A DNA stretch of 64,000 nt from Azospirillaceae bacterium (lineage in GTDB: Bacteria > Pseudomonadota > Alphaproteobacteria > Azospirillales > Azospirillaceae): NCBI GenBank assembly GCA_028281465.1, contig JANQJV010000297.1, positions 1-64,000 on the forward strand. Direction: 5' to 3'. The notes beneath the pieces were generated by a model. That model made no database searches. It was not told where the DNA came from and saw nothing but the letters and a program-made list of their open reading frames with translations. Each line of letters opens with the position of its first letter. Within the stretch, counting starts at the first letter, position 1. Both the position numbers and the translations under genes were made by a program. This document shows, one piece after another, positions 8,343-35,257 of this stretch.

Positions 8343-8538
8343 TCGTTCAGCGCCGAAACCGAACGTGTCATCAATGCGGGCCATGGGTATTACCGGCTGC
8401 GTGACGTCGAAGCCGTGATCGAGAATGACAGCGATACCGGCAATAAGCACTTCATGATCTTGCCCTGGCAGCACCTGCCGAACCTGGCCAAGCCGTCCAA
8501 ACGCGATGCGCATCTGTTCGAGGCAATCTCGGATTGCC

Positions 8539-8584
8539 CGATCCTGCACACCCCCGATCCTGCACACCCCCGATCCTGCACACC
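8539..8584. repeat. 16-bp tandem repeat, about 2.9 copies
   Basis: The unit CGATCCTGCACACCCC occurs twice in full (8539-8554 and 8555-8570), followed by a partial third copy up to 8584. The unit length is not a multiple of three, so it is unlikely to be coding. It is a likely site of length variation. Confidence 0.8.
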
Positions 8585-24139: not shown

Positions 24140-25306
24140 TTACGCGACCAAGTCTTTCAGCACTGAATACAAATCGCGCTTCGCTTCGAAGCCGATGCCG
24201 GGGATGTGGGGCAGGGCGACCAAGCCGTCTTGGACCGGCCGGTCGTCCGCGAAGCCACCGAAGGGCTGAAACACCCCGGGGTAGGATTCGTTGCCGCCCA
24301 GACCAAGCCCTGCTGCCATGTTGAGCGACATTTGATGTCCGCCATGTGGAACGACGCGGCGCTGGCTCCAACCATGTTCAGCGAGCATGCGGAGCGTACG
24401 CAGATACTCCACCAGACCGTAGCTGAGCGCGCAGTCGAACTGCAGCCAATCACGGTCCGGCCGTAGTCCACCATACCGTACCAGATTGCAGGCATCTTGC
24501 ATGGAGAACAGGTTTTCGCCGGTTGCAAGCGGCGCGTCATAGTGCTTGGCCACCTCGGCCTGGAGTTGGAAATCCAGCGGATCGCCCGGCTCCTCGTACC
24601 AGCACAGTCCATAGGGTTGTAGAGCTTCTGCATAGGCGAGCGCGGTCTTCCGATCGAACCGACCATTGGCATCCACGGCGACGCGGTCACCGGCACCGAC
24701 AACCTCAATCACCGCCTCAATGCGGGCCAAGTCTTGGGCCAGTGGAGCGCCCCCGATCTTGAGCTTGACCGTGCGATAGCCGAGGTCGAGATAGCCACGC
24801 ATCTCGTCCTTGAGCGCATCAATGCCTTTATCCGGTGCGTAATAGCCGCCGGCGGCATAGACCCAGACCCGGCCATCGGCGACGCCGTGATTGAACCGGT
24901 CGGCCAAAAGGGACCACAACGGCACGCCTGCCGCCTTGGCCACCACGTCCCACACGGCCATGTCGAGCACGCCGACGGCTACCGAGCGCTCGCCATGGCC
25001 ACCCGGTTTCTCGCCCGTCATAAGCACACGCCATACCTTCGCTGGGTCGAGCGTGTCACCGGTCTCATCGACCAAATCGGCTGAATCGGCTCGCATCAAC
25101 CGGGGTATGAAGCGTTCGCTCAACAGGCCGTGTGCATGGTAGCGGCCATTGGAGTTGAAACCGTAGCCGACCACTGGTTTGCCGTCACACACGCGGTCGG
25201 TTACCAGGGCGACCACGCTGCACTGCATCTGGCTGAAATCGATATAGGCGTTTCGAATGAAGGAGCGGATCGGCACTGTGGTGTGATGGATCCGGACGAT
25301 CTTCAT
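24140..25306 (-). CDS. tarD: D(-)-tartrate dehydratase-like enolase-superfamily enzyme
   Basis: 388 residues from the ATG at 25306, with GGAG 9 bases upstream. The whole protein matches what I know of Bradyrhizobium D(-)-tartrate dehydratase: IRNAYIDFSQMQCSVVALV, VVGYGFNSNGRY, GGHGERSVAVGVLDMAVWD, YAAGGYYAPDKG, VKLKIGGAPL (the KxK base), DANGRF and EEPGD (metal ligands), TGENLFS and HGGHQMSLNMAAGLGLGG (the histidine acid). It would dehydrate D-tartrate to oxaloacetate. No transporter or regulator is adjacent. A related sugar-acid dehydratase is the main alternative. Confidence 0.85.
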   Translation of the reverse strand: MKIVRIHHTTVPIRSFIRNAYIDFSQMQCSVVALVTDRVCDGKPVVGYGFNSNGRYHAHGLLSERFIPRLMRADSADLVDETGDTLDPAKVWRVLMTGEKPGGHGERSVAVGVLDMAVWDVVAKAAGVPLWSLLADRFNHGVADGRVWVYAAGGYYAPDKGIDALKDEMRGYLDLGYRTVKLKIGGAPLAQDLARIEAVIEVVGAGDRVAVDANGRFDRKTALAYAEALQPYGLCWYEEPGDPLDFQLQAEVAKHYDAPLATGENLFSMQDACNLVRYGGLRPDRDWLQFDCALSYGLVEYLRTLRMLAEHGWSQRRVVPHGGHQMSLNMAAGLGLGGNESYPGVFQPFGGFADDRPVQDGLVALPHIPGIGFEAKRDLYSVLKDLVA

Positions 25307-25680
25307 GTTGGACGAACTCCACTGGATAGCCTGCGGGGGGATGATCTGGGATGGGCCAAGAAACCGGCCGCTGCAGCCCATGTCCCGCTCCGTGATCTTG
25401 AGTCACTATGCACGGTCGAATGGATCGACGACCAGACGAGCGATGTAATCTTGAAGATGTGCAAGCCACAATACCCATGCCATGTCTCTTGTGGTGGCAA
25501 CCCACAGGCCGTCCAAATCGTGAGGCATAATCGGGGCAGTTTATTTTCCATAACGTGACTTATGCAGCCAAGACCCGATGCCCTCTTTGGGGAAAAGCGG
25601 GAATAGGGTCTAGTGGCACTGCACAGGGGTTTTGACCGGTTGGTCGGAGTGTGGTTGAAGGACTGGTAAGTGCTCCGGCT
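25307..25680. other. Intergenic region upstream of tarD
   Basis: About 375 bases between tarD and the IS66-type remnant. It should contain the tarD promoter. Short open frames on either strand show no recognisable product. GTGGCACTGCACAGGGG near 25615 looks like element-end sequence but has no visible partner. Confidence 0.35.
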
Positions 25681-25915
25681 CTATACGCGCGTGACAACCG
25701 GCCGTACCGGCAGCAATTCGATATGATCGTAGGCCTGCCGAACCCGCTGGCAATCCTTGTCCACCGCCGTCCCGCAGTGTTTGCAGGAGATGGCATGGCA
25801 ATCGATTACCCGGCGCGGTGTCTCGGCCAAACGCCGGGTCACGCCGGGATCATCCTGCTTCTTGCGCGGCTTCTTCTCCCGTGGCGGCCGGCTCTTTTTC
25901 CAGCCACGCTGGATA
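25681..25915 (-). pseudogene. IS66-family transposase fragment
   Basis: Reading the minus strand from about 25915 gives PREKKPRKKQDDPG, then a zinc-binding stretch with CHAISCKHCGTAVD and YDHIELLPVRPVVTRV before a stop at 25681. The CxxC cluster and the YDHIxLPxVRPVVTRV phrase are those of the N-terminal part of IS66 TnpC transposases. The catalytic DDE half is absent, so only about 75 residues remain. The upstream end is cut at or near the tlyA fragment. This is a decayed insertion-sequence relic. Confidence 0.75.
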
Positions 25916-26159
25916 TCAATAGCCAGTGCATTGCTCTAATCAACCCACAGTTCGAACTCACCAAAGGTGACCTAAATAAGCGCGGCATTGTTCGCAGCGA
26001 CGCTGATGGACAGAAGGTGATCAGGAAAATGCAAGATTTTATTGCGAAGACATGGCAGCTAGAAAGCAAAATTACCCCTCCCTGATCAAGGATCAGAGAG
26101 GGGGTGTTGAATTCTTGTTGCATTTTCAGAAGAGCAATATCCGAATTGAGCGATTTTAA
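25916..26159 (+). pseudogene. 3' remnant of tlyA-type (FtsJ-like) RNA methyltransferase gene
   Basis: The plus frame to the stop at 26085 encodes CIALINPQFELTKGDLNKRG followed by IVRS and a helical stretch, the C-terminal part of the TlyA/hemolysin-A rRNA methyltransferase (family phrase VALIKPQFE...KRGIVRD). After the stop, the shifted frame continues with LIKDQRGGVEFLLHFQK, the expected family ending, and stops at 26157-26159. A one-base loss near 26083 explains the break. The 5' two-thirds are missing at the IS66 junction. The fragment is AT-rich relative to the rest of the window, so it probably arrived with the neighbouring DNA. Confidence 0.75.
26075..26103 (-). terminator. Putative terminator of the radical SAM operon
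   Basis: CCCCTCCCTGATC and GATCAGAGAGGGG form a 13-base stem with one mismatch and a 3-base loop. On the minus strand it is followed by TAATTTTG, a short T-rich run, 63 bases after the peptide gene's stop. It also overlaps the tlyA remnant's reading frame, so part of the symmetry may be accidental. Confidence 0.5.
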
Positions 26160-26165
26160 GCTAGG

Positions 26166-26357
26166 TCAGGCATTTTTCTCCGCACCAGTTTGTGTTGACA
26201 ATCTAGGTACTACATTTGAGAATTTCTTCGGACTACACGGACTACCACTTTGCCTACAGCATCCGGATTCTGCAGCTCCCATCATCTCCAGTGACTGGCT
26301 GCCCATATCATCAGAGTCCCTATCTTGCCATTCCACCGTTAAAGAAAAGTCTGCCAT
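26166..26357 (-). CDS. Candidate RiPP precursor peptide, 63 aa, three cysteines
   Basis: A small gene directly downstream of the radical SAM/SPASM gene on the same strand. AAGGAG (26369-26364) is 6 bases from the ATG at 26357; a nearer ATG at 26363 abuts it and is unlikely. The N-terminal half is acidic and leader-like (MADFSLTVEWQDRDSDD), and the middle is Met/Ser/Gly-rich. The C-terminal core candidate has ESGCCRQSGSPCSPKKF with cysteines at 33, 34 and 41, then Ser/Thr/Asn residues. No known precursor family is recognised. The gene is inferred to be the substrate from position, ribosome-binding site and composition; a non-RiPP small protein cannot be excluded. Confidence 0.7.
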   Translation of the reverse strand: MADFSLTVEWQDRDSDDMGSQSLEMMGAAESGCCRQSGSPCSPKKFSNVVPRLSTQTGAEKNA

Positions 26358-26380
26358 TTTCATCTCCTTTTAGGTCGTGT

Positions 26381-27643
26381 TCAACAGTTTCCAAATACCT
26401 CGTGGCCATCAAAAAGAATATCGAGGTATTTTGCATCCTCGAATACCAAGCTCAACAGTTCCGGAATGAGTGTTTTATTGAGCTTGCAAACATACTCTGA
26501 GGGCTGCCCGAGAACACCACGCTCCCAACCGCCTTGGATGGGGCAACCTCCATTACACAGTAGACGCAAGTTGCAACCACTGCATTGTTCGTACTCTCGC
26601 ACATGAAGTCTGCTTAGTTTTTGCCTTTTTTTCTCATTAAGTTCAAATCCGCATTTGCCGCTAACCTGACCAACTATCATTTCATCAGAAAATGGTTCAT
26701 CCAGTCGAGACACCTCTAAACATGCGGTTAAATTGCCTTCTGGCGTAAGGGTGAGGTTGCTTCCATTTGCTGCGCCGCAATAATACCCAGTTGTTGGTCG
26801 AGAAATCACTGAGTTATCGAGCTTGATCGCCCAGCAATTTTTCCTAACCATTTTCACCGTATCAACAAATGCAGATGCATAAGATGCAACTGATGGAACA
26901 TGGCAATTTTCTGCTCTAGAAAGAACAGAGCAGTGGGTTGGCTCGAGTTTTATGTACTTCACACCGAGTCCGGCCAGCCTCACCACTGTGTCACCCATGC
27001 GGTCAACACTACTTGCCGTGATTGTACTTTGGACAGTTATTGGACAATTGGCTTCGACAAGATACCGAATGTTATTTTCCACGATATCTGAAGTCGCGGA
27101 CCCCTTAGCTGATGGTCTTTGTTCCTCATGGGCTACGCCGTCATAGGATATCCGAATGGCGGCGTTTGTAGCCACAATCCACTCTCGTTGCTTTTTGCCA
27201 AACAGTCCATTGGATACAATAATTGGCTGTACGGATGTTACTCTAGATTGGCAGAAATCTATAATCTTTTGCATTGTAGAAAAGTTTAAAAATGGCTCAC
27301 CACCTCCTACAAAATAGAGAGCAATATGCTCGATCGGCTCATCGCCATCGGTTTGTATTATTGACGATAGCGCCCTCTCTGCAATTGAATATTCGAGACT
27401 TGCCCGCTGTTCACCGCCTCTGGAATAGCAATAAACGCACCTTAGGTTACAATCATAGGAAGGCATAATACCGAGGCTTATGGCTCTGCCATTATGCTCT
27501 ACCCTTCGAGGCAGGAGGTTATTTTTGCCGCCCTCTTCTTGTGCTATTGCCCTAACACGCTCGCCTGATGCTATAAAGAATCTTATCCGATTTGGCGATA
27601 TTGCGACATGTCTATTGTCACCTAAAGATAAAATATCGGTCAT
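26381..27643 (-). CDS. Radical SAM/SPASM peptide-modifying enzyme
   Basis: 420 residues. CNLRCVYCYSRGG (about residues 69-81) is the CxxxCxxC site for the SAM-binding [4Fe-4S] cluster, and GGGEPFLNF is the GGE-type SAM motif. The C-terminal third has the SPASM pattern for auxiliary clusters: a Cys in TGYYCG, a Cys after PEGNLTAC, then CSGCNLRLLCNGGC and a final Cys in EYVCK. This layout is that of RiPP maturases and anaerobic sulfatase-maturase relatives. No RRE-like leader-binding domain is obvious at the N-terminus. No sulfatase, transporter or peptidase gene is close. Codon use is markedly AT-richer than the flanks. A 63-residue peptide gene follows within 23 bases. Confidence 0.9.
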   Translation of the reverse strand: MTDILSLGDNRHVAISPNRIRFFIASGERVRAIAQEEGGKNNLLPRRVEHNGRAISLGIMPSYDCNLRCVYCYSRGGEQRASLEYSIAERALSSIIQTDGDEPIEHIALYFVGGGEPFLNFSTMQKIIDFCQSRVTSVQPIIVSNGLFGKKQREWIVATNAAIRISYDGVAHEEQRPSAKGSATSDIVENNIRYLVEANCPITVQSTITASSVDRMGDTVVRLAGLGVKYIKLEPTHCSVLSRAENCHVPSVASYASAFVDTVKMVRKNCWAIKLDNSVISRPTTGYYCGAANGSNLTLTPEGNLTACLEVSRLDEPFSDEMIVGQVSGKCGFELNEKKRQKLSRLHVREYEQCSGCNLRLLCNGGCPIQGGWERGVLGQPSEYVCKLNKTLIPELLSLVFEDAKYLDILFDGHEVFGNC

Positions 27644-28238
27644 CGCCCTACCCTTTCAGTCGCCGTAACCTTGTTATTTCAATCATCACCTTTCATTTTA
27701 TCGCTATCGTTTCATTCATACTTCTGTTATTTCCAATCGCAGTCCGGGATGCCGCGTGGTATCGCTCCCCCCCGTGAGCTATTCGAACTGATGTGCCTAG
27801 CAGCATTCCTGCTGCTTCTGTCTTGTGGTCCAGTGAGTACTTTATGCACTCCAACAACAGTCCCCAAGAATGGCGATCATAGTCACAACTGCTTCCCTCG
27901 GTGAGTTTCCTTCACCAATTGAACTCCATTGTCCCTATGTGTAGCCTTGCCCCTCTTCAATGACATTAGGCAAATTGCCGCACGCTGAATGCCACGAGAA
28001 TCCACCATCGCGCCATTGTTGTTCTTCAATATACCCGGTTCAGCTAAGAACCCGAAAATCCATGGGGTATATGATGCGAGTCAGAAATTGAGTCCGTTGT
28101 CACCCTCTTATTCACCCGATTGCCCTGACTAGAGGGATTGACACGGCATCTGGTGTATGAGTCACTGTGGTCAGCTCAACTGTTGGTTTTCCGGCGTTGG
28201 AGGATCGCTCATGCGCCATTTATCCGTGTTGGTAGGTG
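27644..28238. other. Unassigned AT-richer region upstream of the radical SAM gene
   Basis: About 600 bases with no recognised gene. On the minus strand two overlapping frames stay open without a good start. One ends at 27886 (ATG near 28008, with LKRGKATHRDNG). The other runs 27911-27693 (with YDRHSWGLLLECIKYSLDHK). They may be decayed coding sequence or part of a structured leader. The promoter of the radical SAM gene should be here. CTAG at 28129 is a possible IS701-type target, but no matching terminal repeats could be fixed. Confidence 0.4.
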
Positions 28239-29653
28239 AACGCGGATTGATGTCGCGTCCACCATCGGTGCGGTCGCGTCGGCATACGAGAGCTTTGTGA
28301 ACCGATATTCGGGGCTGTTTCGCAGCAAGACGCGCGACGCCTACCCGATGGCGGTTAAGTATTTGCAGGGCTTGGATCCAGGCGGGGCATCGAACACTTG
28401 AACAAATGACAGACGCCTTGGGTGAGCCAGATGCCCAGGCGCTTCAGCATTTTGTGGCGCAATCGCCTTGGGATCATCGGCCGGTTCTGCAGCAAATCGC
28501 CAGAGATGCCGCTGCCAGGCTGGGCGGCGAGGACAACAGTTGCCTGATCCTCTACGAAACCTCGCTTCCGAAGAAGGGCCGCCGGTCGGTGGGGGTTGCC
28601 CGGCAATGGAGTGGCCGGCAGGGAAAGGTGGACACTTGCCAAGTGGCGGTCTTTGCGGCCCTTTCCAATGGTCGCGATCAGTCGCTGATCGATATGCGCC
28701 TTTATCTGCCGAAGGAGTGGGTTGAGGACCCGGCCCGATGTGACCGGGCAGGGGTTCCCGAAGCGGACCGCCGGGTTTTGTCGAAGGCAAACCATGCGCT
28801 GGCGATGATCCGGGATGCACGCAAGAACGGTGTTCAATTCCAATGGGTTGGCATTGATGCCGGGTATGGCAAGGACCCAGCGTTCCTGCGCGCCGTGGCC
28901 GATGCCGGGGGGGTGTTCGTCGCCGATGTCCACAGCTCGCAGCGGGTTTGGTTGAGCGATCCTGGCTTGCCTGTTCCGGAAAGGAAGAGCGTCAAGGGGG
29001 GAGTTCCGCGCAAGCGTCAAACCTCACACGCCCCTTTGACGGTCGACGCGGTGGCGGCGAACGCTGGATCGCAAGACTGGCACAAGCTCAAGCTGAGTGA
29101 CACAACTCAGGGAGACCTCACGGTGGAGAGTCTTCACCGTCGGGTGTGGCTTTGGGACGGTGTCGAAGACAGCCCGCGCCAATGGCATTTGATCGTCCGG
29201 CGGGAGGTCAACTCACCCACCGAAATCAAATACTCCCTGAGCAACGCTGCTCCCGATACGCCGTGTTTGCGGCTCGCTCAGATGCAAGGACATCGTTTCT
29301 GGGTTGAACGGGCATTCCAGGATGCGAAGTCCTTCTGTGGTCTCGGTGATTATCAACGCCTCGGCTGGCGGGCTCGGCACCACTATGTGGCCATGGTCCT
29401 GCTGGCGATGCTGTTCGTCCTCGAACACCGTCAGGTCCACAGCCCAGAGGTCGACTTCCTCACCGTACGTGATATCGTCGCGCTTCTGAATGCGACGTTC
29501 CCACCTCCTGACAACACCCCTGAAGCCGTTGTCAGAAGGATCAACAGTCGACACGCAAAACGCGCGGCAGCGGAGCGGTCACGACGAACCTGGCCCAGGG
29601 GGCGGACCGAACCCCTAGACAATGAAAAGCAAAAAACGTACCAGAAAATGTGA
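28239..29653 (+). pseudogene. IS701-family transposase, frameshifted and with altered active site
   Basis: The main frame (28406-29653, 415 residues) matches IS701 transposases: LQHFVAQSPWDHRPVLQQIA, SLPKKGRRSVGVARQWSG, QWVGIDAGYGKDPAF (second Asp) and FWVERAFQDAKSFCGLGDY (Glu). The missing N-terminus lies upstream in another frame (AYESFVNRYSGLFRSK...YLQGL), which fuses to it if one G near 28374 is removed. Where family members usually have Asp before ETSLPKKG, this copy has Tyr (LILYETSLPKKG). Both changes suggest an inactive copy. Terminal repeats were not identified. Confidence 0.82.
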
Positions 29654-33404: not shown

Positions 33405-35210
33405 CTATTCCTGAACATCCAGAACCAAGCTACCTGGCTCAGCGCCGCCGCGCAGTTGGAAGCGTTGTTCCAGGTTCAGGTCGCGGATGGCATCTTGCAA
33501 AGCGCTAACCAGCGGGTCGGTTCCCACCGGGCCCGCCACCGAAGGTGGCGGGCCCTGCCCCAAGGGAGTTTGGACTGGCGGCTGAATCGGCTGCCACAAA
33601 TGGGGCTCAGGGCCAATCCGAAGCGGACCAGTGGCCGGCGGAGGGGCGCTCGCCATCGTGACGGGTGCCGACGGCACGGGGACGGCGACCGAAGGAGCCG
33701 ATGCATCGAGCGGCGCGGGCGGTGGTGGTGCAGCCGCCGACGGTTCAAGCGCGAGCTGGGCCGAGGTTTCTGGCCCAAGAGGCTCGGACGTGTCTTGCAA
33801 AGCCGCCAGGTCGGGACCTTGATCCAGCGGTGGGTATGGTGCCAGGCCAAGAATCTCCAACACCCGTTTATCCGGCGGTGCCGTGGCGAAATCCTCTGGC
33901 AAAGTGGACGCCAGTGGGGCGTGCGCGGCCTTGTCTGATTTCATCTCGGTGGCTGGCGCCGGGTCCGGCTGCGCGTGTGCCACATCTGGCCCCTCGGTGA
34001 GCGACGGATAAGGTCGAAGCCCTAAGATGTCGAGCACCCGCTGATTCGGCGGGGCGGTTTCGAAGATCTCCGGTAACGCCGTCACCACAGCCGGCACCGG
34101 TGGCTTGGGCTTCGGACGTATTGGTGGCAACTCCACTGCAACCTTTGTCCCGTGCTGCTGCAACGGATAGGGCCGCAACCCAAGGATATCGAGCACATGT
34201 TGGTCGGGTTCGGCTGTTGCCACAGGCGTGCCCACCGGCGCCGGTGTGATCGTCTCTGCCTCGGGTGAAGCCGGTGCCGGCTGGAGGTTGGGCATCGGTG
34301 CAGCGACGTCCGGCCGCGGTGTCTCCGCTTCGTGGATCCGCGCGTGCTGGGTGCCATCGTCATGCCATGACCTGAAACAATCCAAGAACGTACCGCGCTG
34401 ACACTGCCACAACATCTCGCGCGCCGAAGGCGCACTGGCACCGGCAAGCGATGGTTCGTCTTGCGCGGTTGACCGTACCCCCGCTGCATCCGGGCCTGGT
34501 GGTGGCTCCTCCTCTGCCGGCGCTGCCATGGTCGCTTCCGGGGCCAGCGCCTGACCCATGGCTAAGGCGGAGTCGCCCGCTTCGCCGGTGTCAACCCGGT
34601 CGTCTCGCTGGCTTTGCACGATACGCTCGAGCATGGATGCCACCGGTCCCTGGCGGGGTGGTGCAGGATCGGACAGACCGGCCGCATCGGACACCGGAGG
34701 CGAGACGTCATCCAGGCGCGGTGGCATGACGGCAGGCAGGTCTGGGACCACCGTCACCGACGGCTCGGGCCGCGGTGTGCTCTCTAGCGCCAGAGCCTCA
34801 TCGCGCCGCGATCGCTGAATCACGTCGAGGATAGACAGGCCCGATGCCGAACGCGTGGCCGTTGCGGCGCCGAACGCCGGCGCCTCCCGGGGGGGCGGTG
34901 CCGGGGCATCCGGCACCGCCACGTCGACGGTTTCCGGCGGTGGTTGAGCGGGCCGCGGTTGAACGGGCCGCGGTTGAACGGGCCGCGGTTGAACGGATGG
35001 TGTCACCGGAGCCACTGGATCGGCGACGGTTGGTGGCGCAGCGGGAACGGCATCGCGTGCCCGCATCATATCCAGGATCGAAGCTCCGAAGGACATGCGC
35101 CCATCGGGTCCGCTATCCTGCGCGACGGCCAGAATCGGCGTCAATAGGACCGTCAGCGTCGCTCCGATGGCACCGAAATGCCTCACCCTGCCCTCCGACC
35201 GCGTGTGCAT
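33405..35210 (-). CDS. Exported Pro/Ala-rich protein with internal short repeats
   Basis: 601 residues from the ATG at 35210, preceding a signal peptide (FGAIGATLTVLLTPILAVAQ). No known domain is recognised. Two repeat sets are visible. Near the N-terminus, copies of a helix-like motif read SILDMMRARD, SILDVIQRSRRDEA and SMLERIVQSQRDDR. In the C-terminal half, three copies of RVL(D/E)ILGL(R/A)PYP occur (coding DNA near 34165, 34015 and 33840), the last two each preceded by LPE(I/D)F(E/A)TAPP. Long Pro-rich linkers separate them. It lies 47 bases downstream of hflX. The layout suggests a periplasmic scaffold with repeated docking motifs; this is inference. Confidence 0.8.
   Translation of the reverse strand: MHTRSEGRVRHFGAIGATLTVLLTPILAVAQDSGPDGRMSFGASILDMMRARDAVPAAPPTVADPVAPVTPSVQPRPVQPRPVQPRPAQPPPETVDVAVPDAPAPPPREAPAFGAATATRSASGLSILDVIQRSRRDEALALESTPRPEPSVTVVPDLPAVMPPRLDDVSPPVSDAAGLSDPAPPRQGPVASMLERIVQSQRDDRVDTGEAGDSALAMGQALAPEATMAAPAEEEPPPGPDAAGVRSTAQDEPSLAGASAPSAREMLWQCQRGTFLDCFRSWHDDGTQHARIHEAETPRPDVAAPMPNLQPAPASPEAETITPAPVGTPVATAEPDQHVLDILGLRPYPLQQHGTKVAVELPPIRPKPKPPVPAVVTALPEIFETAPPNQRVLDILGLRPYPSLTEGPDVAHAQPDPAPATEMKSDKAAHAPLASTLPEDFATAPPDKRVLEILGLAPYPPLDQGPDLAALQDTSEPLGPETSAQLALEPSAAAPPPPAPLDASAPSVAVPVPSAPVTMASAPPPATGPLRIGPEPHLWQPIQPPVQTPLGQGPPPSVAGPVGTDPLVSALQDAIRDLNLEQRFQLRGGAEPGSLVLDVQE
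34951..34995. repeat. 15-bp tandem repeat encoding PRPVQ
   Basis: Three exact copies of GGCCGCGGTTGAACG, plus flanking partial copies, inside the Pro-rich protein gene. On the coding (minus) strand each encodes one five-residue Pro/Arg/Val/Gln unit. This is a likely hotspot for in-frame length change. Confidence 0.85.
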
Positions 35211-35257
35211 CGCGCCCACGCATCCCAGAACCGCCAATGCGCCGGTATACTGTTCCT

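Follow-up and report, generated by a model that had tools for sequence, protein, structure and literature searches.

Organization of the gene pair

The window, a stretch of 64,000 nucleotides from an Azospirillaceae bacterium, carries on its minus strand two adjacent genes followed by a hairpin. The first (positions 26381 to 27643) is an intact ORF, from an ATG start to a TGA stop, for a radical SAM/SPASM enzyme of 420 residues. The second (26166 to 26357) encodes a candidate precursor peptide of 63 residues, with Cys33, Cys34 and Cys41 residing in the segment GCCRQSGSPCSPKK. The 23-nt spacer between the enzyme stop and the peptide ORF (26358 to 26380, minus strand) reads ACACGACCTAAAAGGAGATGAAA, and hosts a ribosome-binding site, AAAAGGAG, located about 6-7 nt 5' of the peptide ATG. 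An earlier note on this DNA had described an enzyme with a CxxxCxxC motif and a full set of SPASM cysteines, and a peptide gene 23 nt downstream on the same strand with an ideal AAGGAG site. Both descriptions were confirmed, coordinates included. The arrangement AAGGAG-N5-9-ATG is found once in the window, both strands considered, exactly at the peptide ORF. An alternative ATG two codons upstream (26363) would yield a product of 65 residues, but the 63-residue start is preferred because this ATG directly abuts the AAGGAG.

When the local DNA was shuffled, an ORF of 60 codons or more that was led by an SD sequence and began at most 45 nt from the enzyme stop turned up in 0.04% of the trials. 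Past the peptide gene, positions 26103-26075 of the minus strand can fold into a terminator-like hairpin (13 bp stem, 3-nt loop, -23.7 kcal/mol; z = -4.4 relative to shuffles), followed by TAATTTT. A search of Rfam with the 25.4-28.5 kb region gave no match. The codon usage of the peptide ORF has a log-likelihood ratio of +1.1, too weak to decide; the competing plus-strand frame scores -2.2. The unique start signal, the result of the shuffling and the closing hairpin make it likely that the two genes form a closed unit, and they are plausibly transcribed as one.

Genomic surroundings

The pair resides in a low-GC stretch (25200 to 28300), in which GC content is about 44-59%, and about 45% across the pair, versus about 62% in the flanks. 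An IS-type transposase gene (DDE_5; 28406 to 29653, plus strand) lies just upstream of the pair, and pieces of the 25.5-25.9 kb region match other contigs, several of them close to contig ends. The low-GC segment carrying the pair has probably been acquired horizontally. Flanking genes in the 20.9-32.9 kb interval encode, according to Pfam, a metallo-hydrolase, an enolase-superfamily enzyme, MazG, a sensor kinase and a response regulator; a few of the flanking proteins have no Pfam match. Two short, perfect or near-perfect tandem repeats were noticed elsewhere in the window. One (8537-8584) is made of three 16 bp units; the other (34942-34996; 15 bp, 3.7 copies) falls in an ORF of 610 residues (33405-35237), where it encodes repeated VQPRP units.

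The remark of the earlier note that transporter, peptidase and RRE are missing nearby holds for the ORFs scanned in the 20.9-32.9 kb interval. In these ORFs Pfam detected no RRE/PqqD domain, and no PqqD match was obtained with the enzyme, though many RREs are known to escape this model, PF05402 (PMC7470986). A search of the whole genome for the PqqD family, with the same kind of insensitive model, was equally negative. The notion that an RRE had been lost upstream of the enzyme was discarded, as tblastn revealed no trace of it, and the frame has no in-frame extension (open frame of 424 versus 420 residues); decayed RRE or transporter sequences were not detected in the flanks of the pair. Only about 60 residues precede the radical SAM core, and an enzyme combining such a short N-terminus with no detectable RRE is unusual. 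Three Peptidase_C39 proteins are encoded in the genome, all on other contigs. Two of them, in open frames of >1000 residues (G000:C23:4107-4469 and G000:C310:5209-5562; L048, L049), may be part of different peptide export systems. Distant helpers for the pair are possible, though nothing ties the Peptidase_C39 proteins to it.

The enzyme

In an alignment with two relatives, the radical SAM motif C65-x3-C69-x2-C72 is kept, as are the SPASM cysteines C289, C308, C354, C357, C363, C367 and C386. The CxxxCxxC motif and the seven-cysteine SPASM C-terminal domain assign the protein, at the level of sequence, to the radical SAM/SPASM peptide-maturase superfamily. Searching NCBIfam, the best model was PapB (NF047865; 113 bits, cut-off 340), along with those of nif11 (102 bits), CefB (83 bits) and the SCIFF or six-Cys maturase (TIGR03974; 76.1 bits, cut-off 425). 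Among the 25 best models listed, the enzyme reaches no curated whole-protein cut-off; the exception is the generic SPASM domain (TIGR04085; 41.7 bits, above the cut-off of 27). In line with the profile search suggested in the earlier note, the top-ranked models, PapB, nif11, CefB and SCIFF, all describe peptide maturases, most of them linked to Cys thioethers. The best solved structure by sequence is CteB (PDB 5WGG/5WHY; 1.9e-15 with the single sequence, 1.5e-40 with a three-member profile). Since both the top models and the best structure are peptide maturases, the enzyme plausibly works like one; it is probably a thioether former, yet outside every named family.

Placement in the sulfatase-maturase clade beside a sulfatase gene, which the earlier note had set against its own reading, is not what was found. 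The enzyme obtains 57.7 bits with the anaerobic sulfatase maturase model (TIGR03942; cut-off 349) compared to 113 with PapB, and no sulfatase is encoded by the flanking ORFs scanned. A viperin-type defence function was also discarded, matches being weak (39 bits) and limited to the core domain. A model of the enzyme built by AlphaFold without an alignment (mean pLDDT 39.7) was too poor for RRE or fold searches.

Relatives of the enzyme and their neighbours

No close homologue of the enzyme was identified in the 1,626 genomes searched, 82 of which belong to the same order. In a tree of 30 enzymes the protein belongs to a group of nine (94/95 support) that is unresolved and has long branches, leaving its exact position unsure; it appears as a lone, deep-branching sequence in a sparse family. 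A Pirellulaceae locus emerging from the genome scan was rejected, since the match covers 30 residues of an unrelated protein of membrane type, and the other whole-genome relatives are PeaB-like, or belong to other subfamilies.

The closest enzyme found is encoded by a plasmid of Methylocystis iwaonis (30% identity over residues 45-402, E = 1e-35). After a gap of 32 nt it is followed by an unannotated ORF of 128 codons, with 19 cysteines and CxC-type repeats; the two genes (L010:5740-7586) lie near conjugation genes. A relative from a Caballeronia plasmid (25% identity) overlaps, at GTGA, an ORF of 154 codons (L011:7068-7532) whose product combines a Tat-like signal and three CxC motifs with a C-terminal domain resembling DUF1344. 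Plasmid enzymes of Salmonella and Edwardsiella (24% and 22% identity) precede by 25-46 nt genes for peptides of 57 and 59 residues, featuring an acidic first half and the sequence LCCRGG, and genes for an ABC transporter and S8 proteases come next. These loci, from Salmonella enterica serovar India (L034:4007-8386) and Edwardsiella tarda (L035:2995-8395), represent an unnamed system whose peptide has a Gly-rich tail; no NCBIfam model covers the LCCRGG peptide. Further enzymes from this loose group of the tree adjoin a ligase-like gene, or genes for a CHAT-domain protein or a 157-residue protein. At L015:75-2568 a radical SAM/SPASM gene overlaps the gene for a CHAT-domain (caspase-like) protein.

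The association of enzyme and short peptide gene, regarded in the earlier note as the hallmark of crosslinked RiPPs, is seen in part. Four relatives carry a Cys-containing ORF directly downstream, at -4 to +46 nt from the enzyme gene, but these neighbours are dissimilar. Homologues without a similar adjacent peptide had been foreseen as evidence against the pairing, and at 22-30% identity neighbours do differ, some homologues being devoid of any short peptide.

The candidate peptide

The peptide has the acidic N-terminal half and the cysteines at positions 33, 34 and 41 that had been ascribed to it. The net charge is -7 over residues 1-32, and +4 over residues 33-63. Homologues were not found in plasmids, viral contigs, the genome itself, NCBIfam or PHROGs. 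A putative second copy or paralogue in the genome was dismissed, as the best match lies inside an ABC-permease-like coding region, and is due to chance. Conservation of the peptide, on which the earlier note had made its proposal depend, was therefore not observed in any of the collections searched. With no homologue found, we infer both the precursor status of the peptide and its core residues.

In PapB chemistry, Cys is linked to an Asp or Glu 0-6 positions further along the chain, and the reversed Asp-to-Cys order was rejected (PMC9413430). The corresponding Cys-Xn-Asp/Glu motif (n = 0-6) is absent from the 63-residue peptide, so the role of acceptor would fall to residues of another kind, for example Ser, Pro, Lys or Phe.

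Proposed function

We consider it fairly probable that the pair is a minimal, horizontally acquired unit of the RiPP type, in which a Cys thioether-forming enzyme acts on the adjacent candidate peptide. According to this model, the two genes would be co-transcribed, and the acidic N-terminal half of the peptide would function as a leader bound by the enzyme. The SAM-cleaving [4Fe-4S] cluster and the SPASM auxiliary clusters would then abstract hydrogen atoms from residues of the C-terminal half, and these residues may be joined as thioethers to Cys33, Cys34 and/or Cys41, within GCCRQSGSPCSPKK. If the product is exported or trimmed, helpers encoded at a distance or supplied by the host would be required. 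The choice of this peptide as substrate, the thioether nature of the bond and the identity of the joined residues are all readings of the sequence. The presence of all cluster ligands, the tight spacing of the peptide, the strong start signal and the closing hairpin speak for the model, as do the peptide maturases at the head of the ranked models, CteB as best solved relative, and the Cys-containing ORFs that follow four relatives. The missing peptide homologues, the scores below all family cut-offs, the undetected RRE, the lack of Cys-Xn-Asp/Glu, the weak codon statistics, and the occurrence of similarly scoring distant relatives beside genes for ligase-like, CHAT or 157-residue proteins speak against it. 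A short precursor gene adjoining a modifying enzyme, the general mark of RiPP systems, is present (63-codon ORF, 23 nt). In the RiPP interpretation given earlier, the peptide-maturase enzyme and the closed unit have found support, while the C-C or C-X crosslink had been deduced from the enzyme family.

Other explanations have been weighed. The adjacent peptide may be modified by a C-C crosslink, epimerisation or another radical change, the cysteines being free or metal-binding. SPASM enzymes cover many chemistries, and both the low scores relative to family cut-offs and the lack of Cys-Xn-Asp/Glu in the peptide, given the order required by PapB (PMC9413430), are compatible with this view. Yet the best models and the best structure are thioether formers, and the neighbours of the nearest relatives are cysteine-rich, making such chemistry unlikely, though worth keeping in mind. 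It is rather improbable that the pair is a stranded remnant, non-functional in its host, of a larger acquired cluster which has lost transporter, protease and RRE. The hypothesis would suit the low GC of the island, the transposase at its flank, and flanking sequences that recur on other contigs, in several cases near contig ends; and the Salmonella and Edwardsiella analogues do retain transporter and protease. In turn, both ORFs and their control signals are intact, and no decayed RRE or transporter sequence was detected in the flanks. The remnant and the preferred explanation are not in contrast as to the original chemistry.

That the enzyme targets a protein encoded elsewhere, the small ORF being an unrelated gene, or one for a regulatory or partner protein, is improbable. 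The diverse neighbours found in the tree group, ligase-like, CHAT-domain or 157 residues long, and a peptide without relatives would fit this hypothesis. Against it stand the tight spacing, the unique ribosome-binding site, the terminator closing the unit, and the fact that no other candidate substrate is encoded next door. Finally, a chance open frame of 63 codons would account for the near-zero codon log-likelihood and the missing homologues, but is very improbable for an ORF preceded, in the right place, by the only AAGGAG-N5-9-ATG in 64 kb, and followed by a terminator.

Returning to the thioether model, one may speculate further that the pair is a stand-alone two-gene system, working without RRE, transporter and protease, whose product would be a Cys-crosslinked intracellular peptide representing a new class (CC plus C-x6-C core, no acidic acceptors), distant kin of the CCR-peptide group of enterobacterial plasmids. 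We regard this extension as doubtful. The pair is a credible candidate within a well-populated class of modified-peptide systems. Many such unassigned pairs exist, and this one, taken alone, adds to their number without being surprising. Radical SAM/SPASM enzymes make crosslinks that chemistry finds difficult, and a pair of two genes in which no leader-binding domain is obvious would be a compact, easily expressed test case for how such enzymes recognise peptides. Were Cys joined to a non-acidic residue, the known thioether repertoire would be widened.

Comparison with known systems

The radical SAM and SPASM architecture is common to the window enzyme and the anaerobic sulfatase-maturating enzymes. 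The ranthipeptide system PapB/PapA (NF047865) resembles the pair in having a radical SAM and SPASM enzyme which adjoins a Cys peptide; it differs in that no RRE was detected in the window enzyme, and no Cys-Xn-Asp/Glu is found in the window peptide. CteB, of the SCIFF system, performs thioether chemistry, and is the best solved match with both the single sequence and the three-member profile. CteB-type enzymes carry an N-terminal peptide-binding domain, whereas the stretch ahead of the core is only about 60 residues long in the window enzyme, and the window peptide is not a six-Cys precursor. The pair of M. iwaonis shares with the window a Cys-containing ORF downstream and no annotated peptide transporter nearby, but this ORF encodes 128 residues with 19 Cys and CxC repeats, and the N-terminal region of the enzyme is longer. 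The Salmonella and Edwardsiella peptides have a Gly-rich core, and an ABC transporter and S8 protease alongside, unlike the window peptide. BLAST does not align them to it, so the likeness is to be taken as a lead, not as homology. It concerns peptide length, acidity of the first half, an Arg directly after a CC pair, and a sequence free of Cys-Xn-Asp/Glu.
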